Origin: Mya arenaria
Lineage: Eukaryota; Mollusca; Bivalvia; Myida; Myidae
Direction: 5' to 3'
Assembly: GCF_026914265.1 (NCBI RefSeq)
Contig: NC_069126.1
Coordinates: 28,472,354 to 28,536,353 of the forward strand
DNA: 64,000 bases
Positions 8,068 through 53,760 of the stretch are shown here, piece by piece. The stretch's first letter is position 1, and each line of letters starts with the position of its first letter. The notes under the pieces are model-generated. The model was not told where the DNA came from and did no database searches. It saw only the letters and a list, made by a program, of their open reading frames with translations. The position numbers and the translations under genes are program-made.

Positions 8068-8340
8068 AAGGTATACTTACATTAAACATCAATGTCCGAA
8101 GTTATACAATTCATTATCATTCTTGGTTATGTTTTTGTCGTACTTTCTAAACTAAGCAATTTAAACTCCTAGTATTGTTATATCTGCAGAAAGTTTTTTC
8201 TACAATTTTTTTAGCATCAACTGTGTTATCGCTTTTTTTATTTTGGTAAATCTGTTGCTTACATTGTAAGTTGTTGAATTGTACATGTAGTTGAGTTTTG
8301 ACTCTTATCCCTCATTTGAAGGCTTTGCAAGACGTATGCG
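8068..8340 (-). pseudogene. Decayed third-Ig-domain exon of the receptor family
   Basis: This stretch aligns on the same strand with gene A exon 5 (19,064-19,384). Shared landmarks include TGTAAGTTGTTGAATTGTAC, TTAAACTCCTAGT, TTTTAGCATCAAC and the splice-donor context TACTTACAT at the 3' end. Translation is broken by stops and indels, for example in the block matching the RPEPRLYF region. It cannot belong to gene 0, whose later exons lie left of 604, so it marks a further lost copy between genes 0 and A. Confidence 0.82.
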
Positions 8341-8619
8341 CATGTTTTCATTCTTTAATTGAGACCGTCCGGGAAGGTTATTGTAGAAACCATTCCCTGA
8401 ATGCAAACAAACTTTGAAGAGACATCGTTCATAACCTTTAAACAGACATTCACGTTGTTGAAGTCTTTGTTTCAGTAAATATTCGGTAAGCATGTGCGGG
8501 AGGAGGTTCCATACACGATGTGGGTACTGATGATACCATAAGTATATATCACTGATAAGATAAAGATTCTTAAAAGTTGATACTTTAGAGACAAGCTCTG
8601 TTACAAAATATATTACAGT

Positions 8620-11255: not shown

Positions 11256-11411
11256 CTAATTGTTTAACACAGATCTATTCATATTTTTTGTCTGGGCAAA
11301 ATCAATTGAAACGTATGTAGTTTCGTCCTCTGATTTTACTGTTGGCTTTCTTCGTGTGGAACCCTCTTTGGGTAGATCAAGATCAGCGTAGATGAGTGCT
11401 CCATCCTCGGT
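11256..11411 (-). CDS. Gene A exon 13: tail with ITIM LIYADL and ITSM TTYVSI
   Basis: A 156-bp terminal exon enters in phase 0 after a TTTAG acceptor and ends in TAG. It encodes 51 residues with LIYADLDLP and TTYVSIDFAQ and ends SVLNN. Gene B has the same exon at the same length with both motifs identical, although the residues between them differ, which suggests selection on the motifs. Confidence 0.9.
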   Translation of the reverse strand, partial: TEDGALIYADLDLPKEGSTRRKPTVKSEDETTYVSIDFAQTKNMNRSVLNN

Positions 11412-14400
11412 CTAAATGGTGAAAAATATGTTGAAAGGTATCATTCAGTGTTAAAGATCAACTGCTACGAATGTTTGTTTTACTGTGTATTATTATTCAA
11501 AGATGGACACAGAAATGGACATAATCATGAAACACAATGAACGAGGGAGGCTAAAAACAAGGAATAATTATCGATACTGACCAACCATATTTCGCAGTTG
11601 GTCATCAATTCCATACGGTTTGTGATATATATTATAGTTTAATATTAAATTAATATTTTAGGGAATTTAAGAGATATAAACTGGGGAGACTAAAGCATTT
11701 CACATATTATCTACAGGGTGGTTTAGCCATATTCACAAAGCGTTAAAGACAAATTAACGACACTGATGGAGTTTAAGCCATATTCACGACAAGGCGATTA
11801 ATACAAATTAACAAGAAGCATTTTTTGACATATTGAGAACAGGGAGTTCTAGCAAACATATTCATTAAATGGAGTTTAATTCACTACAGGGAAGTTAGGA
11901 AATATTCATTACAGGGAGGTTAGGACATATTCACTACAGGTACGTTAGGACATATTTATTACAGTGAGCTTAGGACAAATTTACTACAGGGATGTTAGGA
12001 CATATTCATTACAGGGAGGTTAGGACATAGTCAATACAGGGAGGCTAGGACATATTTATTACAGGGAGTTTAGGACATATTCACTACAGGGAGGTTAGGA
12101 CATATTCATTACAGGGAGGTTAGGACATATTCACTACAGGGAGGTTAGGACATATATACAACATTGAGGTTAGGACACATTCACTACAGGTAGGTTAGGA
12201 CATATTCACTACATGGAGGTTAGGACATATTCACTACAGGTAGGTTAGGACATATTCACTACAGGGAGGTTAGCATATATTCACTACAGGGAGGTTAAGA
12301 CATATTCACGACAGGCAGGTTAGGACATATTCATTACAGGGAGGTTAGGACATATTCACTACAGGGAGGTTAGGACATATTTACAACATTGAGGTTAGGA
12401 CACATTCACTACAGGTAGGTTAGGACATATTCACTACATTGAGTTTAGGACATATTCACTACAGGGAGGTTAGGGCATATTCACAACAGGGAGGTTAGCA
12501 TATATTCACTACAGGGAGGTTAAGACATATTCACTCCATAGAGGTTAGGACATATCCACTACAGGGAGGTTAGGACATATATACTACCGGGTGGTTAGGA
12601 CATATTTACTACAGGGAGGTTAGGACATATTCACTACAGGGATGTTAGGACATACTCACTACAGGGAGGTTAGGATATATTCACTAGAGGGAGGTTAGGA
12701 CATATTTAACAGGAAGGTTAGGACATATTCACTCCAGAGAGGTTAGGACATATTCACTACAGGGAGGTTAGAACAAATTCACTACATGGAAGTTAGGACA
12801 TATTCACTACAGGAAGGTTATGACATATTCACTACAGGGAGTTTAGGATATATTCACTACAGGTAGGTTAGGACATATTCACTACAGGATTTTAGGACAT
12901 ATTTACTACAGAGAGTTTAGGACGTATTCACTACAGGGAGGTTAGGACATATTCCCTACATGGAGTTAAGGGTATATTCACTACAGGGAGGTTATGACAT
13001 ATTCACTATAGGAAGGTTAGGACAAATTAACAACAGGGGGGTTAAAACATATTCACTACAGGGAGGTTTGGACATATTCACTACAGGGAGGTTAGGACAT
13101 ATTCACTACATGATTTTAGGACATATTCACTACAGGGAGGTTAGGACATATTCACTACAGGGAGTTTAGGACATATTCACTACAGGGAGGTAAGGACATA
13201 TTCACTACAGGGAGGTTAGGACATATTTACTATAGGGAGGTTAGGACATATTCACTACAGGGAGGTAAGGACATATTCACTACAGGGATGTTAGGACATA
13301 TTTACTATAGGGAGGTTAGGACATATTCACTGCAGAGAGGTTAGGACATATTCACTACAGGGAGGTTAGGACATATTCACTACAGGGAGGTTAGGACATA
13401 TTGACTACAGTGAGGTTAGGACATATTCACTACAGGGATGTTAGGACATATTTACTACAGGGAGGTTAGGACATATTCACTGCAGAGAGGTTAGGACATA
13501 TTCACTAAAGGGAGATTAGGACATATGCACTACAGGGGGTTAGGACATATTCACTACAGGAAAGTAAGGACATATGCACTACAGGGGGATTAGGAGATGT
13601 TAAATACAAGAAAATTAAGACATAGACTTCCAGAATATAAGACATGTTCACTGATGAGAGTGTTAGAAATATTATCTGCAGTGAGTGTAAATCATATTAT
13701 CTACAAGGAGTTTTAGCCATAGTCACTATAGAGCATTTAAAGACATATTAACATTCGTACCTGAGGTTTTGGAGCCTGTCTCATTGCCCTTTTAACAACA
13801 CAGGAGTACTCAACCGGTTCAGCATTAGCTTCAGAAGCAGCATCACCGTGATTGGAACCAGCGGGATCGTCGTGATCAGGATCTTTTGAAAAACAAAAGA
13901 ATATTTAAGCATTTAGTTTCTTCAGTACTTTCTGAATCCATTTCTTTATTCATTGGCATTTTACGTATATTAGTTAACTGTTTTGCTTCATAAATTGATT
14001 TAGTACGTTGAGTTTGTTTTGATCAAACACATACTTTTGTCAGAAAAAATACAATTCATTCCAGTAACTTAGTACCTGTAACAGTTATCGCGTTTTGGTA
14101 AAATGTTACCGAAAAGAAAAAGGTACTTAATCAACAAAGCATTATTGACAATACCACTGAAAGCAATGTTTATGTCCTTTTCGTACAGAAGTTGTTAAAA
14201 TGTAAAGAAAGCATTCCGAAAGAACGAATAATGAAATGTCATATTGGAGATGCACAATGTGCATGCTATTACCTAGCGGATGAAAGCTCCTGCAAAAGAC
14301 ATAAAGGCGGATGATTAGATTTGTGATTAAACATTCATTATATCTTCACCAAAGACTGTGTTTATCCCTGCCATAAACTGTGTACATTTCGTCATCAGTA

Positions 14401-17400
14401 AATACACCATTTGATCCGCGAACATTTTAGTCATTGATATTCTTAAGGGTATCACGTACTCAATAGTTTGATGTTTTTAAACTTTGTTGAAATTAAGTTT
14501 AGATTTATGAAATGACACAAAACAACAACTGGCAGGTACAACCTATTTTAACAGAATTTTGTAAATCGAAGCCAAAAATAATTTAATCTAAAGTTTTCAG
14601 TTACAGTTTTGAATACTGTTTAAATTGAAATTATTTGAGGGACAATGATGATGCTGTTGTATGATATATTTACACATTTCAAAGAATATCAATTTATTTG
14701 ATAAATAACACTGTAAACGTGATCGAGTAATTTTTAATTAAGAAAAACGTACGGTTGTCGCTCCTGAATATGTACACTATTAGAACGTTTCCTCATCGGT
14801 GTTCGTGTCTTCAATACAATCACACAAACGAATGCTATTATAACGATAATTACAACCGCCATACAACCGCAAATGATTCCGATCAGCATCGATGAAGAGA
14901 TGACTTTACCAGTGGATGGTATCGGCTTTGTTTGTTTGGAAGTTTTTTCTACAATTAATGAAAATTGATACATGTTTCATTTATATTGCAAACATAATCC
15001 GGAAAAAGCGATTATGGGAAAGACAAAATACATAGCAAAGATGATAAAAAGCGTGGACATTAGTCATTTTGCAGCTCAATACGGGCGTTTTCATTGAAGT
15101 GGCAGAGTTTGTTTTGGATATTTGTATAGCCGCTGTTTTTTTCCAAACACCAATCCTACTATAAGAATGCATAAGAATTCCCAGGAAATCTTTGAAGTAA
15201 ATTGGTTATTATTTTTTCCAACACGTATAGTGAAAAAACATTAAAAAAGGTTTGTTAACAGAAAGTATTTGTTTTAGGTTTTAAACTCTTAAGTTTTCTT
15301 TCTTTTTTCGGTTGTTTAGCGAAGAACTCAACGAGATTAATTAACGCCTCCAAGTTAACATTCCAGCAGAATTGCATCCACTTGTAAATACCTTTGACCA
15401 AGATGAACACCACATTTTCCGCCGAACCAATCGTGTTTCTCGCAATGCACGTGAAGTTATGGCGACCAGTGGATTGAAATTGCATGTTAAGTTCTAGGCT
15501 GACATCAGTTCTTTTACCTGAATAAGCAAGTGTTAGTTATACATATATAATATGATGCCATATTTTCCTTCAGACTAATTTTCTGTATTTTGACAAGCAA
15601 ATGGTCATATTGCTTTGTACGTGTATATTATGTTATGCTTTCAAGCAAAGAAATCAGACATAAACATCTACCTATGTTATTCGGGGTAGTGTTTGACCAT
15701 TCGATCTTAGCTGCTGGGTTTGCGTCACATTGACATAAAACGCTTATACTGTCACCCACGTAGGTCGTAACTGAGGAACTGGGAGAAAAACTAATGAACG
15801 GTTTGTCTGAAAAAGTAACATTTGATCAACTGTTCAAAATATTAAAAAAAATACCTGACATCATTGTTAACTTTTAAAAGATACCTTTTATATGACGTGA
15901 AAATATATTTAAAAAAAACATGTACATATGAAACATTTGTCTCAAATCTTAATAAACACACTGCACATGTATATCCATTAAACGTCATGTATAAATATAT
16001 GGATCTATTTTTTACCCACCCCCACCCCCAACATTCTTGGTGAAAGAACGTTTGATCGCTTTAATAACAAAGAACTTTTTTAACTGTTTGATTCAATGGA
16101 GCGCAGATCTGGGGTTGTAGTTACGCCCCTGAAATCGAGCGAGCTCAAATTGTATTCTGTAAAAACTCACTCGGTCTAAATATCTGTGCTAAGTGTTTGG
16201 CACTAGGTGAATGTGGTCGTGTTCCACTTTGCGTGATATATTATTTCAAATGTATAAAAAACAACTGTTGTTAAATTCTGCATATACAAAATCATCGCGA
16301 CCCAAACATTGTTACGTTATGTTAAACGTCAAGACGATATTCGAAGAATAAATTGGGTAACACAAACTAGAGAAATATTAGTTCAGTATGAACTTGGTTA
16401 CGTCTGAACAAGACGTAGGCGACAAACTGTATGACTCAGGGGCAGTTTGACATCGTTAATACACTTTCAAGATGTGATCTCTATAAACATGTTAAATCCT
16501 TACTCAATCCTGAAAAAATATCTCTCCATAAATTTGTCACATAAATTTGTTCGTGCGCGTGCACGATTTAGATGTCTATGGCACCTACTACGAAGTTGGC
16601 CGGCATCTGAACATAGAAAGAAATGACCTAATATCCGTCCTGCTTTATCAACGAGAATAGGCTATTGTTAGAAGATGAAATTTCATGCGTTTTCAAATGC
16701 CCGAGAATCTCCACTGTAAGAAATCAGTTTTTATATAGCTGGTACACAGGTCGTTCTGGCCTTCATGCCTTTTACAGACTCCTACAGTCAGAAAATGGTT
16801 ATGTTATTAGACAAGTGGCAATATTTTTTTATTCATTTTTTACAATCGAGTGATTAATATTAAAATTTGTATAACATTTGTAGTAAGCAATGAAACCCCT
16901 GCATTGTAATTAATGATGTAAATATAATTGTATGCATTTTGGGCCGGAAATATTCTGAAGGATAAAACTTGTGCTTATTTTGCCTGAACCGGTCGTCTTT
17001 TTCTGACTTTTGTAGGCGGGGGGTTAAGAGAGCAACGCCCTAATTGGGCGCTGGTGAATCACCGTGTGTAGAGATCTTACTGCGATTTACTTTGTGCTAA
17101 ATATAGAAAGGAACATTCACACAAACAACTGTTTAAATCATTTTGACACGTAAAATGTCGAAATGCATTTACGAACGTTTAAAAGTAGCGCGGTTCATGG
17201 ATATGCAAAATCGCAGCCGAGCGTTCATACTTTATAAACGCACACAAAAAAAGAATCAATTCTTAAATAAAGTTGAGTTCAGTAAAGCAGTATAAATTTT
17301 ATGGCTAAAAACGATGAAGTTAACAATGTTCTTATTTTAACGATGTTCTGAAAATCAGGACAAAGTAAGCATAATATCATGCTCAGTCTGGTACAGACGG

Positions 17401-20400
17401 ATATTGCTTAAAGTATGTTTGATCTTATGTCAATCTAAAATGATGAGCTCATCATTATTTTATAATATAATATTAAATTGTTGATAAAACGTGCTCCTTA
17501 ACTGGTTTTAATCGATATCAACGACAGTTGCACCATAACCAAAACATTTATTCTTGACGTGTAGCCCTGTTTACCACTTAATGAATGTCAGTCCTTATGT
17601 CGTGTGCACTCAACTAGGTACAATTTTAGAGTTTGGAAAGCTGAGTTTCTGTTAGACGTCAATCCATATGTTGTTCAACTGAATAATTGCTAGAGCTTTG
17701 GAAACCATTATATGTGAATACTTAAACTATGTGCATTGAAATAAAAACATTGTTAGAGCTTTGGAAGCTGAGCGTTCTGGATTTCTGTATTTTATATTTA
17801 CCATTAAACAAAGATTATCAAATATTGCATTGTTAACTTACAAGTAATGTTGATTTTAAAGGTTTTCATTACTTTGATCTCTGGAAACTCAGGATTGTCT
17901 ATATAACATGACAGTAGGTCTCCATTGTTTTTTCGTGTAAGGTTGGCAGATAAAATCTGCAAATGGACAAGCAATATCAATTAACTGACCTTGGTTCTGT
18001 AGTTCAATACTCAATGTAATTTTATCAAAATATATCGATACACATATCATTATAAACATCCTACCATTTGGAAAAAATATCAAAGCAGTAAACTGAATAT
18101 GGGAATCAGAAAAATATCTTAAATCTGTTTTCTAAATTAGTTAGATTAATGGTGTCATGCCAAAAATGTTTTACATAAAACACCGCATGAAATACCCATC
18201 ACATATGAAACTTAACGTCATTGACGGTGCCAATAAAGTAACAGGTAAGGAAATCTTTAACACCCCCCTTATTTAGAATAAGTTTAACTGCTCTTTTCTT
18301 CTTGTCGCAGGTTATCCCATAAAACACACATAATTTTGTGTATTAGAAATCATGAGTGTTATTTATTTTATAATCACTTTAAACGATCTGTTAAAAATAT
18401 ATTATTCTAACAATTGATTGAATGTGCCGTGTTTATCTAACCACAAGTTACTTTTTCGTGTACAAAAATATGGAAAAGATACTCAATATGTTACCTCAGT
18501 CATTACATGACCAGACAGTTGTTCAACCTTTTCATTTTCCTGGGATGATTCATATTGAAAAGTTGACGTAATGTTCCATCTTATTTTACTAATTGGATTA
18601 GATACGTCGCTTTTACACTGCAACATGATACTGGTATGACCTTCTGCATCGTTTGTTCTCTTTTCTTCGAGCTGTAGAAACTTCGCTGGAACTGGGCGAA
18701 AAATAAAATTAATATAAGTGACCAGAATTGAATTAATTCCTTTGGTGGCATATACATGCAATTCAGTTATTAAACTACACGCCAACATTGGTGCAAGGGA
18801 GGAATGACAAGTATACTTCTAAAAAATATCGCATTCTCAATAAATAGGTACGTATGTCACAGTGTTTTGAACATCTGAAATATGAACATACTGTTCATTC
18901 TTTTCACTGAATAATATTATCATTATTGATATATAATATACAAGCATTACTCTCTGTTTTGAATATGGGTGAATCAATATTGCCCTTATTGGTGTAGTTT
19001 TGATCAAGCATGTCGTTTAAATAAGTTTTACATAAAGAACTACTTAAACTGAGATATACTTACATAAAACATCAATACCGGCAGAAGTCGAACATTTCGT
19101 TTTCATTCTAGATTCATTTATGCCATACTCTTTAAACTCAACGCAACAATTTAAACTCCTAGTGTTGTCATAACGGCTGAAAGGGTTTCCTAGGATTGTT
19201 TTAGCATCAACGGTTCCATCGCGTCTCATTTTGGAAAAGCTGTTGTTTGTATTGTAAGTTGTTGAATTGTACATGAAGTAGAGTCTTGGCTCTGGTCTGG
19301 CATTTAAGGATTGGCAAGTTATACGTGGATTCTCTCCTTCTTTAACTGAGCCCGATAATAAAATTGTAGGACTCGATGGTTTCCCTGTAAATCAAAATAT
19401 TAACTTCAATAATTAAGTAATTGTTTATTTTCTCTTTTTTGTTTGACTATGATTATGCCAGGATTTACTGCAAGAATCATGTTCTTTTAAAAGGTTACGT
19501 TGTACTGTTTTAATTTCTCTGTTGTTGTTTTATCATACAATGTTAATGAATCTTCATTTTATACAATATGATTAAATTAATAGAACGTACGCAGAATAAT
19601 AAGAGTGATTGATACTGCAACCGGCTGTTGGCCATCTCCAGTGGCCTCGCAAGTAACGGTATGATCTGTATCTTCTTCACTCGGCATGTATGCATAAAAT
19701 GCTCGATAAAAGGGGAAAGCTTCCGCAGTCACATTGGGAACATCTAGACCATTTCTCGTCAGCTTTAACTCCATGTTCTTCAACAAGTACATATTAAACT
19801 CTAATAAAATTAATGGTAGAGCTAGTTTCTTCAGACTCTTATGCATTTATGTAGCATTTTCTAATTATAAACATTACATTTGCGTATTAACAATGCAATG
19901 AAACAAAGTATAGATAACAATAGAAGAAACAGTAAAGAAAAGTGTCATCGAGAGTCAAAATATTATCGGAAGGCGTTCCTGGTCCATGTTGAAAGGTTTA
20001 GACTTTGATGGTAGCTGACAGCAAAACATAATAAGAAGGTCAAGTTACCTAATTACTTACTTACCGCCTGAACGGTGTTATTGCTGACAGCTATTTGTTT
20101 TACACATGTTAACTGTCTTTTCTTAAACACAATCAACTATATTTAGTTCATTTACGTTCCAATTAGTTTGGATCCGATTTTTAACAGAGCAATATTACAT
20201 TAAACAACGAAAGCATACTTGATTTAAGAGACACAGTATCAATAAAGTAAGGATTTAATATGATAATTAAACCGATTCTATTCTTTCATACCTTTTTTTG
20301 CGCCTATCCTACAATGTGTTTGGAGGACATATGTATGCATTTTCTTTCAAGGCTAGTGGCTTAACATAAACAAGTGATTGAATTAATATTACGAGATTTG

Positions 20401-23400
20401 AAAGTAGTTACCATATTTTTCCGGCTGATTCCAGACACAATACATTCTACGTTGTTATAGGCGCCAACTGTTCCAACCAGGCAATGTGCACAATCCAACT
20501 CTGGGATGGTAACGTTGTCAGGGAATTGGGGAATTATGGTAAGTTTCTTCGACTCTGAAATGTAAATAAGATTTCACAACGTACTAGCCACCAACTTATG
20601 CTTCAAGTACATGTATGCTTGTTTTGTTATTACACCTATGGTGGAAAAATGTGGTATCTTGGTCAAAAATGGAACTTTTGCTTTCATTCAGAAAATACTA
20701 CAGAAGCAGAAATGTGTTTCTCTTCATTTCGAACAGATACGTACCTCCATTGGGCAAAGCTCATGTTAAGCTTAGTATTACTTTTCATAATGTTAAAGAC
20801 AGGCGCTGCCAAGAAGAAAGCGTTAACTATGATAACGAAATTGTATTAAAGTACACATAATATTGTATATATCAATACAAATGTCAATTGTATTCTTGTC
20901 TTCCGCAGCATACTTATACAGTGACAGTTTAATACGTAATGGATATTGTTTATTTGTATTTTTTAAACGTTCAAGCTTACTACAGAATAAAAAATAACAA
21001 TTAAAATGGTTGAAATGATTTCTGTTTACTGACAAGATCCCAACGAACTTTATTCGCCCTTACCGTTTTAATATGTACGCGTGAGAAACTGAAGCAATAT
21101 GGACACGAATATTATAATTATTATGTCAGTTTTTGTTTTCTACTTCGTTTATTTTGCTGAAATAAATTGTCACTGAAGTATGTTTTGCATTAAAATTTAC
21201 TTTACCGAATTTAAGATTATATCGTTTTTCTTTGTTTGTTTTTGTTTTTCTTCAAGAAAATCTTTCATTGTCAGTCATGCAAGACAGCCAATATGGCGTT
21301 GTTGTTACGAAAAACAGATGATTGTTAAATAAATAAAGTTACAAATAATTAAAGACTACTCCCATAAATGAGTTCAGAAAAATATGTTTGTATTGTTTTA
21401 TGATAAGGTTTCAAGCTCTTCGAGTTATATGATGATTCATGAACCGCAGTAAAGGTGAATTGCACAACAAGTCGACTTTTTTATGTCTAAATAAATGTGT
21501 GTAACTAATGGCAAATACGCTCTTCATACGGCAATGTCAAAGAATCATGACGTCACAAAAAATCATACACTCTGTTCTGCTTCACGTTTGATGAGAATGG
21601 CCAATATATTGGGGATTCATCAAATAATCATAGCACGTTAAACGCTGATCAAAGTGATATTCGAATATTTTGAAAAATACTCCCATCCCAATGTTTCAAA
21701 ATAATTCAATCATTGTCAACTTATCATTTCAATTTAACCAACTAAGACATTTGTAAAGAACAATTTATAAAGTCGTTTATCTCATTGGATGCCTTTTTAT
21801 TACATAATATCGACTCAATTACTCATCCACGACTCAAAACTCGAATGAAGGACAACCTGTTTCGTTTCACCAACTAATAAAGAGTAAGTCGCTTAAACGG
21901 GGAACGATAGGTTAACCGAATAAACAACAAGAATGAAAAAAACAACACGTCCTAAGAACTAGCTCGTTTAAACGCGTTTTTAATGACTTACCTTTACAGT
22001 TTTAGTAATAGTTGTAGACTGTTAGTATGTACTTACAACTGTAACTGGTTTGATGCAACGTTGTCACATATCCATTTATTTAAAGTAATTACAAACTTAC
22101 AATCTTTAAGTTTTAGTGGTCTACATAATATTGTGTGAACTACCGACTTACTGGGCCAGCAACTGTTTATCATCACCGCTTCACATGATTAAAGTCAATA
22201 AAGGCTGACTGACGATTTACTCTCTGCAGGAATACTGCCTTATTATTGGACAAACTATAATGCTGGCCACTAACATACTTAACAGTTGCTAAAAGAAAAA
22301 AAGTTCTTTTTAACGGTATATTGTTCAGATGGGTTGTCAAAAGATGGTGTAATCCTGTATGATATCATTGACACCATAATCAATATAAATATTAATGATG
22401 CTGTTCTACTGTCCTACTGTCATCTGTCCTTATATATAGAGGACAGTTGTTGATTTCAGTGTCGGATCTTATTATATTTCTTATGAGTCATAGAGTTGTC
22501 TTATAACCATAAATTAAATACGATCTTACACTGAAATAAAAACAAGAAATATTTTAAGCTTATTTTCAGAGTTTTAGTGGCACTTTAATATAAATAGTTC
22601 AAAATACCCCCTTTTTGAAAAAGTGTTTGCTACGCCGCTACCTGTGGGACGACCCTCACGCAAAGTTTTGATCACAGATGAAGTAGCTGTTATTTCTATT
22701 TCCGTTCTCTTTTTCTGTTCTTTAAGAGTTTTTTGTTATAGTTCATTATTTACTGGTGTTAAGTGCAAACATTAAATGAATATTTATCAATGATTTTTTA
22801 TTAACGCATCCATGTTCTAAATAATTAGTCACTACACGAAAGTGTTTTTAAATTGAACGGCGCGTGAAAACATGATCAAATTACACTGTTCGCCATTACC
22901 TGCCTACAAATTAGAAGGGTCGAACGTGGAACGAAAACAAATGTGATATGACATTGGATTTAAAACAGTTTTCCAAGCTTAAGCGTATGTTTCATGGTAT
23001 TATCGTATTGAATCACCCCTCACTGATTCCCTAGAAGACGGGTCGTTTTCCAGATTATTCTGGAAATCATTAGGCGTGGGCGGAATAAAAAACCCAGTTT
23101 ATTGTTGTGTGAATTTCAGGGAAGTCGTACAGTAGCTTGATAGATAATGTAACATCGAATTTATGTTCGAACTGTCTTTTCGTCTGTATTTTGTATAGTA
23201 TGAAAGTAAATGATCGAGTATTTAGCTTACAGTTCGAGAAACCGTTTGAAAAAACAGGATAACAATTGTCCTAATATCTTTATTTTCAATCATATCTTAA
23301 CGCAACCTTTTTAAATATAACATTTTGGGCAACATTAACTGGTCTAAAAATGATTTGTTTGGTTTTCATGAAGGGGAAGAAACTACATTTAATTTGGAAT

Positions 23401-24873
23401 GTAGATCTTATGGTTGATATCTTAACTTCTTAGTTTGCTGTGGAAATAATATTTCTTTCATTTATAAAACTCCATACTTCATCGAAAAGCATAACATATA
23501 TCATTTTCTTTACTGATCTTATGGTAGCCTAAACATCATTATACTTATAAGATTAAGAAGAAACATATAATTAAGCAATTCTCATCAGCAAAAAAGATAT
23601 ATGATAATAGGATATGAAATGGCTTAATTTCTTCTTTTAAAGGAAACTTAAGCATAAATTAAACCATGCATTTTCAACGCAGATAATAGGAAAATCAAAT
23701 GTTATTACAGTTTAGTTTTAGATTACCTTTAACCGTAAGTAAAATTTTGTTCGGTGGTGAGCACTGTGTCTCTTTTAAATTCACTCCATATTCACCGTTA
23801 TCCCCGACTGTGAAGTTACGTATTGTCAACATGACCCGGTCAGTTTGAACGTCAATAGAGTAACGAGGTAAGGTAGTGTCTATGTTGTTATCATATTTCC
23901 ACCATCGGACCAAACTTGTGCTATAACTTTGGATAATTGAGAATTCTAGTCTCACATCTTCACCTTGATTGATGTCGTCGGTATCTAAGACCCGTAAGGT
24001 GCCACATTCTGCAAAATCAAATTGACCATTGATAACAAATGTATGTTGCAATAATCAAGATAATCTACTCTTCCTAATAATGCTATAAATGGACTTTATT
24101 TCAGGATCATTTTTTATAGATTCGTAATAACATAAAACAAATACCACGCACTTTTTATAGTATTTAATATTATGTCAGCATTTTAGCATGGTCACACATA
24201 AAGCAATTGGTTATCTGTTACCATCAATCTTCGTATTGTCTTTATACATACAACGGTATCTGTTCTGAGAGAAATATAACACGCCCCTGTCTAAAAACAA
24301 ATCATATTGCGAATTCATCTTTTTTATGACCTAAAAATTTGCTCGTTTTTTATATTGAGCAAAGAATTATTTTATTTTGTCCAAAAGCACTTGATAAAGA
24401 TAATGTATGCAATAATGTATACAATTGAATGTACAATCATCAGGGTGTTGCTTTTTTAAATTAAATTGGGCTCTTCTAATAGTCACTTTTAAGCGTCATA
24501 TCAAGTATGTTGAAAGTATCTATAAGCTTATTATCATATCACGAGATGAACGCCGCTAGTCTTTTTGTATTCGAAGCAAGAAATGACGCAATCGTTTCCT
24601 CTGACGTCAGCACTATTATATCCATTCCGGATTGTTGTGGTACTCATGGTAAAGGTTTCTACAGTCTGATATAAATACAATATGCCCTCGTCAAGCGCCT
24701 CATGAAGAGGAAAACAATGAAAAAATGCGACCTAAAATGTTCATCCCATTTTTATGTTTGATGTTATTGCTATGTGTAAACGTCATTAAATAAAGTGTCT
24801 TACTTTGGCTTTGATGACTTGGTAGACACAATAGAATATAAACAATTTTACAAATGAAAAAAATATAATCCAT
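11256..24873 (-). CDS. Gene A: five-Ig-domain transmembrane receptor with ITIM/ITSM tail
   Basis: Thirteen exons on the minus strand join in consistent phases to 2,067 nt (688 codons plus stop). Predicted layout: signal peptide 1-23, V-like Ig domain ~24-117, Ig domains ~118-227, 228-334, 335-438 and 439-525, transmembrane helix ~546-571, then a tail of ~117 residues. Tyr622 (VEYSCV) and Tyr645 (LIYADL) fit the ITIM consensus; Tyr670 (TTYVSI) fits the ITSM consensus TxYxxV/I. In vertebrates such motifs recruit SH2-domain phosphatases or adaptors; that role here is inferred. Introns have GT-AG ends. Intron 2 (3.2 kb) and intron 7 (2.0 kb) hold nothing else recognised. Intron 12 holds the minisatellite. 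Gene B is its inverted paralogue. Ligand and orthology are unknown. Confidence 0.88.
11880..13600. repeat. 25-bp minisatellite in the last intron of gene A
   Basis: About 65-70 copies of a 25-bp unit, plus strand GTTAGGACATATTCACTAC then AGGGAG, with scattered substitutions and small indels. It fills most of intron 12 (11,412-13,760). Read on the gene's strand, the unit core CTGTAGTGAATATG matches the gene B array core CTGTAGTGTATATG in the equivalent intron. The ORF at 12,960-13,169 is a by-product of the repeat. Confidence 0.97.
13761..13882 (-). CDS. Gene A exon 12: tail with ITIM VEYSCV
   Basis: A 122-bp exon, phase 1 in and phase 0 out, encodes an acidic linker and then PVEYSCVVKR. Gene B has the same length and VEYACV. 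Near the start, gene B reads VYDNL while gene A reads DHDDP, so gene A lacks one tyrosine that gene B has. Confidence 0.9.
14273..14289 (-). CDS. Gene A exon 11: 17-nt microexon
   Basis: GAGCTTTCATCCGCTAG lies between a TTTTGCAG acceptor and a GTAATAG donor. It is needed to bring the phase 2 end of exon 10 to the phase 1 start of exon 12, and adds SFHPL. Gene B has an equally long microexon with four differences. Confidence 0.85.
14753..14948 (-). CDS. Gene A exon 10: stalk, transmembrane helix, basic anchor
   Basis: This 196-bp exon (phase 1 in, phase 2 out) encodes a Thr/Ser/Pro stalk, a helix of about 26 residues beginning MLIGIICGC, and a basic juxtamembrane stretch (LKTRTPMRKR) before VHIQERQP. 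The basic cluster after the helix fits a type I orientation. The paralogous exon in gene B keeps the helix start MLIGIICGC and the end VHIQER. Confidence 0.92.
15392..15517 (-). CDS. Gene A exon 9: fifth Ig domain, second half
   Basis: A 126-bp exon, phase 1-1, contains the F-strand signature GRHNFTCIARN and the G strand ENVVFILVK. The cysteine pairs with that in exon 8 (VLCQC). In gene B the codon at the first V of NVVF is TAA. Confidence 0.9.
15672..15806 (-). CDS. Gene A exon 8: fifth Ig domain, first half
   Basis: A 135-bp exon, phase 1-1, encodes KPFISFSPSS, the B-strand cysteine in SVLCQCDANP and the core tryptophan in KIEWSN. An intron splits the domain between the C and later strands, as in gene B. 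Confidence 0.9.
17842..17956 (-). CDS. Gene A exon 7: fourth Ig domain, second half
   Basis: A 115-bp exon, phase 0 in and 1 out, encodes ILSANLTRKN and the F-strand cysteine in LLSCYIDNP. Acceptor CATTTGCAG and donor GTAAGTTAAC are identical to those in gene B. Confidence 0.88.
18495..18691 (-). CDS. Gene A exon 6: fourth Ig domain, first half
   Basis: A 197-bp exon, phase 1 in and 0 out, carries IMLQCKSDVSNP and IRWNIT, the usual cysteine and tryptophan of an Ig fold. Gene B has one codon more. Confidence 0.9.
19064..19384 (-). CDS. Gene A exon 5: third Ig domain
   Basis: A 321-bp exon, phase 1-1, encodes a whole Ig-like domain: RITCQSLNARPEP, LYFMYN and RSLNCCVEF, with a further cysteine pair position in MKTKCSTS. 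Several NxS/T sites suggest glycosylation. A decayed copy lies at 8,068-8,340. Confidence 0.92.
19591..19777 (-). CDS. Gene A exon 4: second Ig domain, second half
   Basis: A 187-bp exon, phase 0 in and 1 out, carries MELKLTRNG, FYRAFYAYMP and the F-strand DHTVTCEATGDG. The length equals that of gene B exon 4. Confidence 0.92.
20412..20554 (-). CDS. Gene A exon 3: second Ig domain, first half
   Basis: A 143-bp exon, phase 1 in and 0 out, encodes KLTIIPQFPDN, a CAHC pair and the B-strand cysteine in VECIVSG. Gene B exon 3 has the same length; there the pair is CQRC. The exon is too short for simple ORF detection and is supported by splice sites and the paralogue. Confidence 0.9.
23727..24008 (-). 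CDS. Gene A exon 2: V-like first Ig domain without the canonical Cys pair
   Basis: A 282-bp exon, phase 1-1, lies between acceptor TTTTGCAG and donor GTAATC. It has V-set features: LVRWWKY and the DNGEYG motif before the F strand. The usual B-strand cysteine is Phe (VRLEFS) and the usual F-strand cysteine is Val (GEYGVNL). Two other cysteines, at the N-terminus (ECG) and near the G strand (TQCSPP), are shared with gene B and could form an alternative disulphide. Confidence 0.9.
24804..24873 (-). CDS. Gene A exon 1: signal peptide
   Basis: A 70-bp exon begins ATG GAT TAT and ends CAA A before a GTAAGAC donor (phase 1). The 23 residues have a hydrophobic core (IVYILLCLP) followed by SHQSQ. Length, start and end match the first exons of genes 0, B and C. 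Confidence 0.88.
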
Positions 24874-26559: not shown

Positions 26560-27450
26560 TTCTTATTGAACACAATACTATTTGATGATGATTAACTGTC
26601 GAAGGCATTTAGTGATCTACATTAAATTGTGTAACTTCACAGGTAGTTATATCGTGTAGTACCGGGGTCAGCCACTGTTTATATCAAACGCCTCACAGAT
26701 AATAGTCAAGAACGGCTAACTGCTGATTTACTGAAAGGAATGTATTGAACAACTTCCTTTTATTGGACAAAATATAATATTGACCGCTTACAATACTAAA
26801 CAATGGCTTAAACGAAACAAATAGTTTTCAACGGTAGATTTTATAAATTTCATAAATCCTTATCGTTACTGAACATATGATAGCAATAACAATGGTATAA
26901 TCTCCTCCTTTGAAACGACATTTTGACATCGTTTTTGAACATTTCATTCAATTCATGCAATTTACAAGTCGGGTTTCATTTTTGACGTTGTTTTTAACAT
27001 TTCAACGTAACTAAAATTTTACTCGGTGGTGAACACTGTATGCTTCCTAAATATGCAGTGTATCCACCGTTATTCTCTGATGTCCCGTAGCTTTGTATCA
27101 ACGTAACATGGTCTTGTCGAACGTTCCAGACAAACGCTATTTTAAACTTTTAAAATGAAAAATATATAATGAACTTTCCTGCTTAAAAATTGACAGTTAC
27201 ATCGATCAGGATATACCAAACGTGACCATACGCTCTTCACAGCCATTACGACAATTTATCATGAACTAGAAAGCCCTCTTTGGCCTGCTACTTCCGAAAC
27301 TTAACACAAAGAGTGAAACCATAGTATGACATCCAAGTTTACATTAGACCGCTACATATAAGTGTACTGTGTCACATGAGCCGCAAAAATGAAATGAAAA
27401 ATAAAACAAATACTTGAAAAACAGAAAGTAAAAAGTATGTAAAATTTAAT
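26560..27450 (-). pseudogene. Relic 5' end of an Ig receptor copy (promoter to intron 2)
   Basis: On the minus strand, 27,170-27,450 matches the 5' flank of gene B, including CACTCTTTGTGTTAAG and AAGTAGCAGG. The signal exon is reduced to a scrap near 27,150-27,170. The segment 27,003-27,135 retains an open V-like piece (VTLIQ, NNGGYTAYLGS, QCSPPSKILV) without a donor. The region 26,560-26,820 matches gene A intron 2 (22,080-22,300). Intron 1 is missing. It is a partial, decayed duplicate. Confidence 0.78.
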
Positions 27451-40059: not shown

Positions 40060-40208
40060 ACAACACTACTGAATCCAGTGGCTCCCCATGTTAGTCATTT
40101 GCGACTGCCTAGCGGTGCTAATCATCGTTATGATTGCTGTCCAGTGTGTGGTTTTATCTGAAAGTCGAAAGAAAGCGCCGGAAAAAGAGGTTTTTAATGC
40201 TCACTTTC
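40060..40208 (+). pseudogene. Relic transmembrane exon of the Ig receptor family
   Basis: The plus strand reads MLVICDCLAVLIIVMIAV then VVLSESRKK and HFQERQP before GTCAGT, closely matching exon 10 of gene B (MLIGIICGCLAVLIIVM.., VHIQERRP). The upstream stalk is out of frame by one base and a TGA is close by. No companion exon was found nearby, so it is an isolated fragment of a lost plus-strand copy. Confidence 0.82.
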
Positions 40209-43200
40209 AGGAGCGACAACCGTCAGTAATCTGCTATATTTATTAGCACATATAATGACAGTTTCGTCGATCAATATCAACAACCATTTCTTGTGAAATT
40301 TCATTTCAATACCGAACTTCTTTTAACTGTTGTAGTAGTAAATTAAACCGTTTACGTCCGGGACGAACATAAGTTGTCAAGAATTGTAATTGTATTACCA
40401 AATTTGAGCACACACGCATATGTAACGCCAGGGTTTAAGACTGCTTGTTTATTAAAAAAGCTGTCAAATATTAAAATTACCATGTTATTATTCATGTTCA
40501 TGGAATGCTCTCTTAATACAAAAATTGTTCAAAATTGCAGGAAGTTAGCTAGTTAAATTGAAGTAACCCCAACTTATGATAATAAAAAAAATATTATACA
40601 AACATACGTTTATGAACGTGTACGGTTAAATTAGTGGCCAACCATTATATATCTATTCAAAAACTTCATGACGAAGATTTTAGAAGATATTTTAATTACG
40701 AATAAACATAGGCTTCTCTAAAGCTATGGGAAGTCATAGTGAAATGAAGTATGTGTACTGCCTGAATGATCATATGTATAAACAATTGTGACCATATTGT
40801 GTTTTTATATCGGTTACTTGATTTTATCGTCTAAAATGGGGTCTATCTTACAATAACGATGAATAAGTGTTAAATTTGCCATATTTTGATAATAAAAACT
40901 TGTCGACGTGATGAAGAGCAAAACTAGGAGTTTATAAATATACAACATACACATTTACGATATGACAGTATGCAATTAAAGATATATTTAAACAACATAC
41001 ACACTTACGTATTTCATTTGCGAGTACATATATTGGAATTTCACAAAAATGGAATTACCAGGCCTGTGTCTTTTTCGTGTTGCTTTATCAATAGTTACTT
41101 AACTGTATAAGTAAACATAACGCACAATTAAGATACCAATTATATATATATATACACACTTGAAGACAATATCCACATTGCATGCACCTTCTAGATACGA
41201 AAACGATATATCTAGATAAATGTGTATCGAATGAACATCATATTATTGCTACAGATAACTAATATATATAAACTGTCATAACTATATATCAGTTATGATA
41301 TGCCAGCGTGTCTGGGTTTATAAAATTGCTCAGAAATCTATACGAACAAGTTGTAAATGAGGTTCACAAGATATGCAGATGTGTTTCTTATGAGGCAGTC
41401 AACAGCAAATCCGATCAGTTTGTTGCTCTGTATGAAATGAAACTAGCATAATCTAATAGAGTGTCAGAGTTGGTGGTAACATATCTCTACATCAAATGCC
41501 GTTTCGCATCATTAGCACTACAGAAGCAAACTCGATGGACAGCTAAATTGTCTATATGTATCATTTGTTTACAGATGAAACCAATAGTATTACCTTTTTT
41601 AAGCCAGCAACCAAAGATATGCTGGTTTATTGTCGCAAAAAAAGTTCCGACATTAACTCTCCAACATCCTCACGTGAGCACAAAGACATCAACTGTCGCC
41701 GTTTCTCAACAGGGATTACATGTTCGTTCATTATGGTCTTCCAACATGCTTTTAACGGGAGTGTACCATAGTATCTATATCATCGCTTATATAGTTTATG
41801 AGATTATACTTCTGTAAGAGTCTATTTATTTCAGATATGAATCCAAGGCTTTGTTGGTCATAATTAATGAATTTCACCAGCCTAAAACTGTTTAAGCGAG
41901 ATACGCATTTGGCAAGCGGCATAGCTGTCCAAGGAATTGTTATTTCATTTTGTCAATACAAGTCTCCACTAATGTAATATTAATTGCACATAGTCCGTGC
42001 TTACTGTGTGCTCAATAGACTGTATAAATTTAACACAGATCAGAAGAAATCTTATCAGTTTAACGATATCGTTTTTGCATGTTTGTCCTTAACTCACTGC
42101 CAAAAAGTCCTTTGGGTATAAACGCTATTGTATACGTTACTATATGGCTTTCTTTGCCGAAGATCCCGCATGGAGTCAACAACTTACCTCGTTATTTATA
42201 AGACACAATTTAAAAGCGGACCCGAGGTGTCTTTTATAAGAACTATTTGAGGCTTTGCGTGACTGCTCAGTCGTTTGGAGTTTTTTATGATAGCATGCGA
42301 AAAGACAATTATCAATCGGTTTTGCATGGCGTAGGTTATTATTTTCTTTGAATGGAGTGTTGTTGTTTTCAAAAATAATAAAATGAAGATGTTTCTTCTA
42401 AATGAATAAACAGCGAGTGATTGTAAAACTCCTATCTCCATTTTATATTTATTCCAGAAAAAAGAAAATGTGATTTTATGTTTGACCTTTTAACTCCTTA
42501 TGCTAGTTGATTACATTCAGTTATCTATTCAAATTAAGGATGTAATTATAAGAGCAACTGTCTTTATCTCGACCACCTCGCTTATGAAGTTGAATTTTTA
42601 AGAACATAATGTATAAAATCAAATGAAAATGTTAATGATTGGTTCGATTTAGATATTCTTTGAATAAGTTTAGAATTCAAATCACCGACTGTAAAACTAT
42701 GTGTGTGCGCTACCTGTTTAGTTCTTTATCACTCAATATCTTTAAATATAGTTGAAGGACAGTTTTCTGTATTCAGCACAGTATGACACTATATTTTCCG
42801 GATAAGTCGATGTTGCTTGAAATTGGCGTCCCATTCTTGTAAGTGATCGGTGCATAATTGGATTTCACTTGGCGCCGGTCGTATAAACATGTACACGTGC
42901 GTAATTTCACCGAAATGAACTTGCATCGGAATTGCAGTGTGATATGCAAAAATTAATATTCATGCTCACAATGCACTTTCTATCTGTTAACAAGTTTGTT
43001 AAGACCGACATGTTCTGTTATGTAACTTGCATATCAGGGGAGAGGCGAATACTTCGACAGATCCGGTGGCCCTGAAACATTTATAAAAGCAAAAACATCC
43101 AACAACAACATTTCAAATACAGATTATTTTTTCTCATGGAAATGGAAATGAAAGCCATTTTTTCATAAAAAGAACACATAAAGTTTCTCACCAATTGAAA

Positions 43201-48878: not shown

Positions 48879-48948
48879 ATGGATTGTATGTGGTTCATTC
48901 TTACAATTGCTTATATTTTATTTTGTCTACCTAGTCACCAGTGCGAAG
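48879..48948 (+). CDS. Gene B exon 1: signal peptide
   Basis: A 70-bp exon, ATG to GAA G before GTAAGAC. The core IAYILFCLP is followed by SHQCE. An upstream in-frame ATG at 48,834 is not conserved in the paralogues, so the later ATG was chosen. Confidence 0.85.
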
Positions 48949-49120
48949 GTAAGACTCTTTATTTAATAGTAAACATTATGATATATTTGAGAAGCGGCAT
49001 TTGGTGTGTGTTTAGACAGGATCGTGTTATATTTATCTTAGAAAAGATACTGCCGTTTATTTATTTAAAGACAAAGACGAATTTCGATGTTAAAACCATA
49101 ATAACATAGCGTATTGCTTA

Positions 49121-50443
49121 GGGCCGAACTCAGAACATCCACTCTCACTCACACTCCAACCACATTCCCGTAAGGGACACTCAAGTGACCACTTGAGTGG
49201 AATAAGGGGATAGACACCCAAGTAAACTGATCGTAGTCAGAGGCCTCGCTAACACTCCACTTCAGCAAGTGACCGATACAGTACAAATCCATGTATGTTT
49301 TCATGATCATATCGGATTATCTGTTTGACTATAGTGGTGTTTACAGTAAACAATGTAAACATGTGTGTACCTTATTGTAAGATACAGTGACAATAACGAC
49401 AATAAATTAGTATTCGAAAACTTAAACTAACATATTTAGACAATTGTTTATAAAATATAATAAAATTCACCTTTTTCTTCTTTTTTTTATATGTAGCCGT
49501 TTAAATTGTATTACGTGATTGAAATATGCTTTCGTATATAATCTTGCTTTTGTAGTCTGCATAAAGCTGTCTTATAATAATAAAAAATATATAATTATAA
49601 TAAATTTTAGGCCGCTAGGCCGCCAGGCCGTCCGCCGCTACAATCACGCCGCTATGCCGCTTGATCGACTTTTTGAAACAAATGTAAATTATCGCTCCAG
49701 AATGATGAATTTTGAATAAAACCAATGATTTTAGCATTGTTTTAGAAGAAAACTTATATAAAATTCTTTGAAATAGAAAACAATATAAGGCCGCATTTAT
49801 AATGTAGAAATTAAAACATTGATTTATCATTAGTTTCCAATTAAACACATGGACAATTACTTTGAGATAGTGAACAAATTGAGGCCGCTAGGCTGCCAAC
49901 TTCATGCCGCTAGGCCGCAAGGCCGCTAACTTCACGCCTCAAGGCCGCAATCGTCACTTGCATAAAGCTGCCTTTAATAGTAGCCATCGATGAATTGCAA
50001 CCATCAAGTTTGCTTGGCGTTTAAGATCAACACCAAACAAACAATATATGTGATTGGTGCATCCTTTTGAAAATTTGATTTTATAGAAGTCCATGTTATT
50101 GAGGTACATGTATTTCAATGGATTATACCGGTCTCTTGAATAGTGTCTGGGAACGAGGATGTCCAATATTTGTTTCAAATATCTCATGTATTCCATCTTT
50201 TCTACTTGTCATGAACATTTATCACTCACACTTATTCAATTTGTATTCACAACCAATCCTCGAGCGTCGTTCAAGTGGCGTAGCCAAGCACTCACAAATC
50301 TCCCACTAACGCAAAACACTAGAGTCTCACACAAACCTGTGAATACGGATATACTTTCACTGAAAAATATCTTAGCCGTTATGTGAATACAGAGGCTTAA
50401 CTCAATGAGGGTGAGTGAGAGTCATTGTTATGAATTCGGCTCT
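49121..50443. mobile_element. 1.3-kb TIR element in gene B intron 1
   Basis: The left end GGGCCGAACTCAGAACATCC then ACTCTCACTCAC is mirrored at the right end, which reads as AGAGCCGAATTCATAAC and ACTCTCACTCACC on the opposite strand: inverted repeats of about 36 bp with some mismatches. No transposase ORF is seen inside, so it is probably non-autonomous. Target-site duplication is unresolved (possibly TA). Confidence 0.6.
49605..49950. repeat. GC-rich tandem repeat (GGCCGCTAGGCCGC type)
   Basis: Two clusters (49,610-49,670 and 49,882-49,950) of a ~20-bp GC-rich unit lie within the TIR element. They are the reverse complement of the repeat at 2,688-2,772. Confidence 0.7.
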
Positions 50444-50574
50444 ATAGCTTTTGATAACGTTTATGATTAGAAATCATTATTATAATCATTGCTCGTGTTA
50501 GAAATGTAAATGATATTTGATAGTTTTGCAGAATATTCATTGCATTTGCTAATAATGTCCTATTTGTTTTGTAA

Positions 50575-50871
50575 TATGTGGGAAACTGCTGCTCTTAAAT
50601 CCTGAACAAATCTATCGAGGTGACGATGTGAAAGTGGAGTTCTCAAGTTCATACATAAATCGTGATACAAGTTTAGTCAAATGGTGGAAATATCTTCAAA
50701 ACAAGCCGAGCCTCATTAATACTACCTTGCAACGTTTTCATACTGACGTTCAGCATGGCAGCGTCACGTTAACAATACGTAACGTCACAGCTGAGGATAC
50801 TGGTCTTTACACTGCATATTTAAGAGGCATTACGTGTTCTCCGCCGGAAACTGTTTTAATTACAGTAAAAG
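50575..50871 (+). pseudogene. Gene B exon 2: V-like Ig domain with lost splice acceptor
   Basis: The homologous span is 297 bp (phase 1-1) with an open frame: CGKLLLLNPEQ, LVKWWKY, VTLTIRNVTAEDTGLY and ITCSPPETVLITVK. The expected AG just before it reads AA (GTAA). The nearest upstream AG (50,531) would shift the frame. The donor GTATAT is present. Like gene A, the domain lacks the canonical Ig cysteine pair. Confidence 0.8.
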
Positions 50872-52334
50872 GTATATAAAACAAATCAGTAATGATTCAC
50901 CGATCATCGGTATTGTAAAGTGCATGCTTTAATTGAAATATTAAATTGATTTTAAGCGTCATATTAAAAAAGGATAATTTAATCTTTCATGTCTTATTCA
51001 TTTATCTATTCATATATTCATTCCAAAGTGTAACGTTTTGCTACCAAAGATTGCTTAAATAAATGTTTATTACTAACCTTTTAAGTGTAATGTTGCTATC
51101 TCTATCATAAGATCAGTAAAAGTAGAATATACAAGGATTGTTATGTTCACAGATGACAGAAACAGTGTAGTATCGTATCATTAATATTTATACTTATCAT
51201 GTGTAAATGTTTATATACGTGATAACACCCTCTATCGACAACCAATAATCATAATTAAATGTTAATGATTGGTTATTGTTTATAATTAGTCAACCGTAAA
51301 AGTAAGTCGTTTAAAACCCGCGTGTAAACGATTTAGTTTTTTCTATTACTATTTTTTTTAATTAATTCTGTTAACCTATCAAGCTCCTCAACTAAGGAAC
51401 TTATTTTTTAAGTTCCTTTAGCGAGGAAATAAGTCGTTTATAGTTTTTGAGTCGTAAATTAACAACTGAGTCGATTTAATGACTTCATTAACTTATCAAA
51501 TAGGTTAGTTGTTTAAATTAAGGATAGTTTGATAATGCTTGAGATAAATTTTGAACCCATTGGTAGCAGTATATTTCATTATTCGATATCGACCTGACAT
51601 TAACGTGTCATGAACTAATAGCAGTAAGGTTAAAAGTACGCGGGTATTTCCAGACTGGTACTGCTTACTAGAATATATACTTCTTTAAAATGCAACACGC
51701 GGCTTTTTATAAAACTGACTTTTACTGCTATCCATAAGTCATCAAAACAGACAAAACATTTTATTTGGCCTGATAACTTATCATAAAATAATGGTAAATA
51801 CATTAATCTTAAGATTCGTATCCAGTGCCAACAATGTCAGTGCACGAAAAACAAACCTTTGTAAGCTTTCCTTGAAGAAAAACAAAACTAAACACAAGCG
51901 AATAGCAAAACAATGTTTTAAACAAACAATGTCAACAACTAGCGTTAAGGAAATATATACGTCACTGAAAAGAATAGTTGAGACGGACAAAAATAACATG
52001 AATACATATAACAACAATGGCAACAATTCATATACTTTATTATGTGCTCTCTAAAACAATTGTATTGTCATTTGTATTGCTTATTTATTGAAAGAACCAG
52101 TCCTAAAACGATATTGAAAGTCCTATATTCAATGAAATTAGGCTTTCCAAAGGAGTTTTTGGTGCGAAAATGAGACACACACACACACATGTCTGATTCT
52201 GAATAAAAAGCAGAAGGATGTTTTTATTTTATTTTTGACCAATATATTACATTCTTTCTGACGTCGATTTAATGATGAAACAAAAATACATGTATTTAAG
52301 ATATAATTTGATGGTTAAAACGTTTACATTTAAG

Positions 52335-52477
52335 AGCCTAAGGTACTTTCCACAAATCTGCAATTCCCTGACAACGTTACCATCCAAGAGTTGGAGTGTC
52401 AACGATGCCTGGTGGGAACGGTTGGCGTCTACACAAACGTGGAATGTGTTGTGTTTGGAATCAGCCAGAAAGACATG
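52335..52477 (+). CDS. Gene B exon 3: second Ig domain, first half
   Basis: A 143-bp exon, identical in length to gene A. It encodes LQFPDNVTIQELEC, QRCLVGTVGVYTN and VECVVFGIS. Confidence 0.85.
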
Positions 52478-52754
52478 GTACACAGCTTTTGCTTCCTAAT
52501 ATTTATTTGGTCACTTTTTTAAACATACAGCAGTCCTCTAAATTACAATTTGATAGGTCAAAAAAGATGTATAATTTCGAATCATAAACCAGACTTAAGA
52601 TGTTACTTCTGAATATCAGTATTGACTCGCGTATATAGGACGGACATTACGTTTTTATTCCTTTACCGCGACATTTTATCTTTTATTTTCATTCCAACTA
52701 CATTCAATGCATGTACACATTTGACCGAATTCAATACACACGTTCACGTGTTTT

Positions 52755-53573: not shown

Positions 53574-53760
53574 GATGTGCAATTGACGCTAAGGAAACAT
53601 GGGCAAGAGGTTCCCAATGTGTCTATCGAAGTTTCTCCATTTTATCGAGCATTTTATGCATACATGCCGAGTGATGAGGACACAGATCATACCGTTACTT
53701 GCGAGGTTGCTAGGGATGGCCAACAGCCGAAAACAGTATCAATCACTCTTCTCGTTTTGC
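53574..53760 (+). CDS. Gene B exon 4: second Ig domain, second half
   Basis: A 187-bp exon, phase 0-1, with VQLTLRKHG, FYRAFYAYMPSDED and HTVTCEVARDG, close to gene A exon 4. Confidence 0.9.

Follow-up and report, generated by a model that had tools for sequence, protein, structure and literature searches.

What kind of receptor does the immunoglobulin (Ig) domain gene on contig C5 of the soft-shell clam Mya arenaria encode, and does this gene stand alone? We took up this question with a stretch of 64,000 nucleotides (C5:28472354-28536353), referred to here as the window, and with searches of the whole genome (1,216,080,610 bases in 18 contigs). The focal gene, designated g6, occupies positions 24873-11256 of the window on the minus strand, and we rebuilt it from the raw sequence. 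The rebuilt model, in which all 12 introns are GT-AG, reproduces the 13 in-phase exons, signal peptide, five Ig domains and single transmembrane segment that the original prediction had proposed from the letters of the window, and on this sequence evidence g6 is confirmed as a real, complete five-Ig type I membrane receptor gene. We put at roughly 0.7 the probability that its product is an inhibitory type I membrane receptor, predicted to act through the phosphatase SHP2 by way of two immunoreceptor tyrosine-based inhibitory motifs (ITIMs) and one immunoreceptor tyrosine-based switch motif (ITSM) in its tail.

A complete receptor gene with five Ig domains

The focal gene codes for 695 amino acids and a stop codon, and its exons, whose exit phases are 1-1-0-1-1-0-1-1-1-2-1-0, join without stops. 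In particular, exon 1 (24804..24873; window positions, minus strand, here and for the exons that follow) carries the start codon and the signal peptide (MDYIFFICKIVYILLCLPSHQSQ), as indicated by its open reading frame, its gtaag donor and the hydrophobic N-terminus of the product. Exon 2 (23727..24008) encodes the first Ig domain, D1; exons 3 (20412..20554) and 4 (19591..19798) encode the two halves of D2; exon 5 (19064..19384) encodes D3; exons 6 (18495..18691) and 7 (17842..17956) encode the halves of D4; and exons 8 (15672..15806) and 9 (15392..15517) encode those of D5. Exon 10 (14753..14948) encodes a stalk, the transmembrane helix (residues 560-578, with a best hydropathy over 19 residues of about 3.4) and the juxtamembrane part of the tail, the rest of which is encoded by exons 11-13. 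Exon 11 (14273..14289) is a micro-exon of 17 nucleotides that leads from phase 2 to phase 1 and is found at the same length in a second receptor copy, g7, and in five genes of a second tail class, class B (both described below). Exon 12 (13761..13882) includes the first ITIM, and the terminal exon 13 (11256..11411) includes the second ITIM, the ITSM and the stop codon.

In the paralogues, the AG and GT that bound exons 5, 6, 7, 10, 12 and 13 are present in all scored copies (for exon 5, 16/16 acceptors and 15/15 donors), and exon 3 has its acceptor AG in 3/3 and its donor GT in 4/4. The least certain junction of the focal gene is the acceptor of exon 4, a tandem AGAG of which the frame demands the second AG; a scripted count found the acceptor AG kept in 11 of 13 scored paralogues. 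A Pfam scan of the focal protein returned Ig_3 (9.1e-16, in three stretches), I-set (2e-11) and C2-set_2 (4.6e-11), all above the cut-offs, and no match to a sushi domain.

D1 differs from a standard Ig domain in its cysteines. Across 15 scored copies we saw none where strands B and F normally carry one, and all 15 have instead one cysteine at the first position and another in a CSPP-type stretch before the last strand; it is our guess that these two (Cys25 and Cys106 in the focal protein) form a disulfide. Of five structural models built from a two-row alignment, with mean predicted local distance difference test (pLDDT) scores from 77.7 down to 33.0, the best predicts a seven-stranded Ig domain, and its best Foldseek matches in the PDB were Ig domains of sDscam, obscurin and titin. 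We rejected positive selection on D1, for which the pooled ratio of nonsynonymous to synonymous substitution rates (dN/dS) is 0.47 and the top window ratio is 0.93, though variation is highest in the loops.

A comparison of the ectodomain with PDB sequences gave 57 matches, the best of which were to the neural adhesion proteins SYG-2 (3.6e-8) and neurotrimin (5.9e-7). Further matches were to contactin-2, CADM4, the Siglec MAG (5.3e-5) and Siglec-8 (0.11), the last two being general Ig matches. In this sequence comparison KIR, LILR, SIRP and PD-1 were absent from the 57 matches, and descent from KIR/LILR, SIRP or PD-1 was rejected for that reason. The closeness of SYG-2, neurotrimin, contactin-2, CADM4 and MAG, together with the likeness of the D1 model to domains of sDscam, obscurin and titin, raises the possibility that the protein is an adhesion or axon-guidance type receptor of the Ig superfamily (IgSF) that works outside the immune system, its ITIMs recruiting SHP2 for positive signaling or as a scaffold. 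We consider this unlikely in view of the approximately 18 diverged copies in the surrounding cluster, damaged ones included, and the many similar tail exons elsewhere in the genome; features of this kind are more typical of loci that serve immunity or recognition than of guidance genes.

Tail motifs and a predicted route through SHP2

The reading that we prefer, that of an inhibitory receptor, starts from the tail. With [SIVL]xYxx[IVL] as the consensus for an ITIM and TxYxx[VI] for an ITSM, the focal tail contains VEYSCV (ITIM 1, 13797..13814, Y629), LIYADL (ITIM 2, 11379..11396, Y652) and TTYVSI (the ITSM, 11304..11321, Y677), all on the minus strand. The tyrosines of the two ITIMs are 23 residues apart and Y652 and Y677 are 25 apart, exactly as originally predicted. 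Two ITIMs and one ITSM arose in a fraction of 2e-05 of 100,000 shuffles of the 119-residue tail.

Across the paralogues, the first motif is VEY[STA]C[VI] in 11/11 scored copies, the second L[IF]YADL in 12/12 and the third TTYV[SA]I in 12/12, so that all 12 copies of exon 13 keep both tyrosines, the L at position -2 of the ITIM and the T at position -2 of the ITSM. (Note that these are 12 of the 14 tail exons of the cluster, L048, with LIHADL and TIYVLI, and L052, which is cut short, having been left out; for exon 12 we scored 11 of 14 rows, without L066, which is an additional copy of that exon in g2, and without L055 and L067, with a stop and VEH.) In exon 13 the proportions of nonsynonymous (pN) and synonymous (pS) differences are 0.012 and 0.262 in the motif codons, versus 0.150 and 0.234 in the rest of the exon; in exon 12 the motif has a pN of 0.053 versus 0.155 for the remainder. 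The motifs that had been proposed are thus real in the sense that they are under selective constraint across the paralogues, with pN below that of the rest of the exon. In g18 the VEY stretch of exon 12 has been lost. In g2 (L065 and L066, C5:28355130-28355357) the exon for the first ITIM is present in two tandem copies, VEYTCV and VEYTSV, and the g2 tail would hold three ITIMs and an ITSM if both were spliced in. The focal tail itself found no match among PDB sequences up to E 10.

A candidate partner for such a tail is encoded at C9:63.174-63.194 Mb, where a SHP2-like gene has exons for its two SH2 domains and its phosphatase domain in order. Identity to the SHP2 query is 76-77% for the N-SH2 domain, 76 and 64% for the C-SH2 domain and 57-69% for the phosphatase, with a stop in the matched stretch of three of the eight exon rows, probably beyond the exon edges. 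We propose that, once the five-Ig ectodomain binds a ligand, the tail would come close to a Src-family kinase, that phosphorylated Y652 and Y677 would together engage both SH2 domains of clam SHP2, and that SHP2 activated in this way would act against nearby activating signals; Y629 would add a third docking site. Phosphorylation, SHP2 recruitment, inhibitory output and expression in immune cells are inferences in this proposal. The equivalent tyrosines of PD-1 (Y223 of the ITIM and Y248 of the ITSM) are also reported to be 25 residues apart, and the binding values given for the PD-1 tail on the tandem SH2 domains of SHP-2 are 0.0159 uM when it is doubly phosphorylated versus 0.775 uM for the ITSM alone; the same study favors a model for cells in which ITSM-Y248 bridges two PD-1 molecules, and describes the ITIM as dispensable for inhibition (PMC7078208).

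Several observations weigh against an inhibitory receptor. In exon 13, 10 of 820 pairs of six-residue windows (overlapping windows counted) equal the motif pair in conservation, and 5 of 36 windows in exon 12 equal its motif, which makes exon 12 the weaker conservation case. A comparison of g6 with g7 alone, a copy that looks damaged, gives a dN/dS of 1.42 in exon 12, 0.70 in exon 13 and 0.21-0.61 in exons 4-7 and 10. The ITIM/ITSM tail of the catfish receptor IpLITR 1.1b is reported to be able to promote activation as well (PMC4810170). Because the solved sequences nearest to the ectodomain are the neural adhesion proteins SYG-2 and neurotrimin, immune expression is an assumption. Finally, Y-x-x-hydrophobic is also the endocytic motif. 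Indeed, YSCV, YADL and YVSI all fit that consensus, and the tail motifs could be mainly AP-2 endocytic signals of a scavenger receptor. We regard such a scavenger as improbable: beyond the Y and the +3 residue, the L and the T at -2 are fixed in 12/12 scored copies, and 19 of 20 distant tails that we read fit an ITIM plus an ITSM, 18 of the 20 with a tyrosine-to-tyrosine distance of 26.

A receptor cluster with two classes of tail

Searches of the genome with D3, D1, transmembrane and tail exons reveal a cluster, and we therefore rejected the view of g6 as a single orphan gene. The cluster lies at C5:28.3-28.9 Mb and comprises approximately 18 related genes, of which some are damaged. The D3 (exon 5) search found 16 full-length and two split copies, all at C5:28.33-28.90 Mb, its remaining matches being fragments in the cluster and distant ones, mainly at C5:59.7-60.2 Mb; the D1 search found 17 copies at E <1e-16, every one in the cluster; and 14 of the 15 sites found with the tail exon are inside it. 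We labeled the genes g1 to g18 by chromosome order, having checked the whole open frame for the focal g6 only. (A tail at 28.627 Mb for which no D3 copy was found is labeled gX, and a D1 exon at 28.614 Mb was assigned to it.) The original prediction stands as a description of the gene, and its interpretation as an inhibitory receptor on mollusc immune cells is partly supported; it overlooked the setting, namely the cluster, a wider expansion of tail exons, the second tail class and the damaged g7. Genome-wide, 150 exon matches to Ig_3 were scored, and 65 of them are on contig C5.

The inverted copy g7 (48879..61147, plus strand) lies in the same window, with its exons in the same order and with the motifs VEYACV, LIYADL and TTYVSI. 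Its exon 2 has lost the AG acceptor and its exon 9 contains a TAA, and we therefore read g7, as it stands, as probably a pseudogene. (In g3, g7 and g13, exon 4 has a TAG in frame; it was not scored as a lesion, as it may reflect only a shifted acceptor.) Upstream of its usable transmembrane exon, g7 has a second, decayed one (57513-57566). Other cluster copies contain stops or split exons, and with such damaged relatives adjoining it the focal gene might itself be a non-expressed relic, the least probable of the alternatives given that 13/13 of its exons are open with every junction intact and that dN/dS pooled over the family stays under 1 (0.33-0.73) in each of the seven exons tested.

An ITIM tail exon lies downstream on the same strand of 11 of the 16 full-length D3 copies (class A), and the other five, g4, g8, g12, g14 and g16, have none (class B). 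A search with the transmembrane exon detected divergent transmembrane exons (40-48% identity) beside exactly those five genes; used as a query in turn, a class-B transmembrane exon matched the five at 67-100% identity and everything else at 52% or less. At its homologous position the class-B exon has a gtaag donor, after which come a 17-nucleotide exon, ATATATG[CA]AGCC[TG]TTAG, and then a terminal exon, a putative splice model that rests on conserved sequence. We considered and rejected a short-tailed form, since the in-frame TAA of the transmembrane exon falls inside the gtaag donor and the two further exons lie downstream. The tails so predicted read ...E[ED]Y[TA]DL...YM[QK]PLG...QTY[DE][SC][VL] and then stop, their tyrosines being conserved and of a non-ITIM kind, with an ITIM or ITSM in 0 of 5. 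An immunoreceptor tyrosine-based activation motif (ITAM) was also rejected because the two Yxx[LV] tyrosines, 36 apart, are too far from each other; E[ED]Y[TA]DL resembles a half ITAM (hemITAM) without its full acidic run. There is no lysine or arginine in the transmembrane cores of the five genes. We suggest that the five class-B genes may act as non-inhibitory counterparts of the class-A genes.

The ectodomains of the two classes are similar. Mean identities within class A, within class B and between the classes are 0.72, 0.72 and 0.70 for exon 4, 0.75, 0.74 and 0.73 for exon 5, 0.77, 0.77 and 0.71 for exon 6, and 0.76, 0.89 and 0.74 for exon 7, and the D1 of the focal gene shares 78% identity with its counterpart in g2 (class A) and 74% with the one in g16 (class B). 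This layout of similar ectodomains with different tails is like that of vertebrate paired receptors. We built trees from D1 (15 rows, excluding g15 and g18, which are partial or out of frame) and from exons 4-7 (16 rows); with 200 bootstrap replicates for each, a branch that separates class B from the rest was recovered in 0%. By the starred branches, the D1 tree needs at least three class changes and the exon 4-7 tree is compatible with a single change. Class labels are hardly clustered on the D1 tree, where 55-59 of 500 shuffles required no more changes than the real labels; on the exon 4-7 tree, where 5-6 of 500 did so, they are clustered, which argues against free exchange of ectodomains. 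The pairing of g6 with g12 is weakly supported (87/84). That outer domains have been exchanged between tail classes is a fair reading of these sequence trees, albeit not a proven one.

Similar tail exons also occur elsewhere in the genome. The pattern ALxYADLD has 18 matches, versus 0 for a reversed control: 13 in the cluster, three at C5:72.9-74.1 Mb and two that are not tail-like. With an E limit of 10, a query tail from C5:73.92 Mb found 108 sites, and one from C6 found 125 rows at E up to 0.1; merged with the 15 sites of the focal tail exon, these number 157 on eight contigs, counting weak matches and stop-containing rows. The 20 tails that we read were hand-picked from the 108 sites, with E values from 8e-13 to 0.38. 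An ITIM plus T-x-Y-x-x-[IV] occurs in 19, and among the 20 the tyrosine distance is 26 in 18, 27 in one and, by our count, 29 in one. In a cluster at C5:59.7-60.25 Mb a D3-like Ig exon lies 4.3-9.1 kb upstream on the same strand at 7 of 9 tail sites, and at C5:72.95-74.13 Mb a transmembrane-like segment lies within 1.5 kb upstream at one of three loci (L082). Extrapolating from tail exons, the genome may contain more than a hundred such receptors.

The window holds further pieces of the receptor family: a decayed D3 exon fragment (8150..8362, minus strand), a D1 exon fragment (27000..27125, minus strand), an isolated transmembrane-exon fragment (40094..40225, plus strand) and the signal-peptide exon of a further copy (62284..62355, plus strand), with a stop-containing D1 fragment (63559-63717) after it. 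Intron 12 of the focal gene contains a 25-bp minisatellite of 68.9 copies (11879..13595). Intron 12 of g7 likewise has a long 25-bp array (59460-60761), with units that by eye are related to those of the focal array, and in the stretches that we fetched the 25-bp unit is found around exons 12-13 of g1, g5, g6, g10 and g11. A DDE_Tnp_4 transposase fragment (47514-47783, minus strand) lies between the two receptor copies. Elsewhere in the window are a fragment matching glycosyltransferase family 92 (36687-37529, minus strand), a tandem 136-bp repeat with a tRNA-like head that is probably a short interspersed nuclear element (5593-5864), and long trinucleotide arrays of TGA (8622-9121) and TAG (36061-36601).

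Known receptor systems and clam recognition

ITIM-bearing Ig receptors have already been reported from oyster, Botryllus and Hydractinia, and the clam receptor is a variant of this kind. Among molluscs, the oyster Crassostrea gigas has the IgSF receptors CgIgIT and CgIgIT2, from haemolymph or haemocytes; CgIgIT2 is described with five Ig domains and a transmembrane segment, and the titles of the papers cited for them name inhibition; in the relevant part of the review that covers them, and compared by description only, they differ from the clam receptor in being presented singly, without a cluster, tail classes or ITIM-ITSM spacing (PMC11999971). The text of this review calls the motif of CgIgIT2 an ITAM, yet the title that it cites calls the receptor inhibitory (PMC11999971). 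The fester co-receptors (FcoR) of Botryllus are described as an invertebrate multigene IgSF family whose different members carry an ITIM or other tyrosine motifs (hemITAM, Y-x-x-I/L/V core); the family differs in belonging to an allorecognition locus and in combining a V-type Ig domain, a sushi domain and two C2-type Ig domains (PMC12065747), whereas the clam receptor has five Ig domains and is not known to be linked to allorecognition. The Alr genes of Hydractinia are likewise clustered IgSF genes, with ITIM/ITAM motifs (cited in PMC12065747) in a family of 41 genes (PMC11999971), but belong to another phylum, have another domain set and serve allorecognition.

Among vertebrate systems, KIR/LILR, SIRP, FCRL and catfish LITR share with the clam cluster clustered genes with like ectodomains and differing tails, one class of which has ITIM/ITSM motifs (for IpLITR, PMC4810170). 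The clam tail resembles that of PD-1 in its ITIM and ITSM with tyrosines 25 apart (Y652/Y677), but the clam receptor has an additional ITIM and five Ig domains, and PD-1 was not among the 57 PDB matches. The PD-1 ectodomain is a single V domain. Unlike vertebrate forms coupled to DAP12 or FcR-gamma, of which a charged transmembrane segment is a feature, the class-B genes have transmembrane cores without lysine or arginine. A search of open-licence literature, subscription papers being outside this coverage, yielded no description of the clam family or of the two classes of tail, and the word 'Immunoglobulin' is absent from the main texts of the clam genome paper and the clam cancer expression paper.

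A broader interpretation, which we offer tentatively and hold to be rather less likely than the inhibitory function of g6 itself, is that these genes form a germline paired-receptor complex of bivalves, in which ectodomains would be exchanged between ITIM-ITIM-ITSM tails and the second class of tyrosine tail, within a set of more than 100 receptors with PD-1-like spacing, and which may serve self or cell recognition by haemocytes, possibly of transmissible cancer cells. Mya arenaria is reported to carry a transmissible cancer (PMC10663159), and for this reason the receptor genes are concrete candidates in the long-standing question of how invertebrate blood cells tell self from non-self; a specific biochemical test is open to us through the distance between ITIM and ITSM. 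If this interpretation is correct, checkpoint-style inhibition in bivalves would be the work of a large duplicated repertoire, beyond one or two genes, and the cluster would have reached the layout of vertebrate paired receptors independently.

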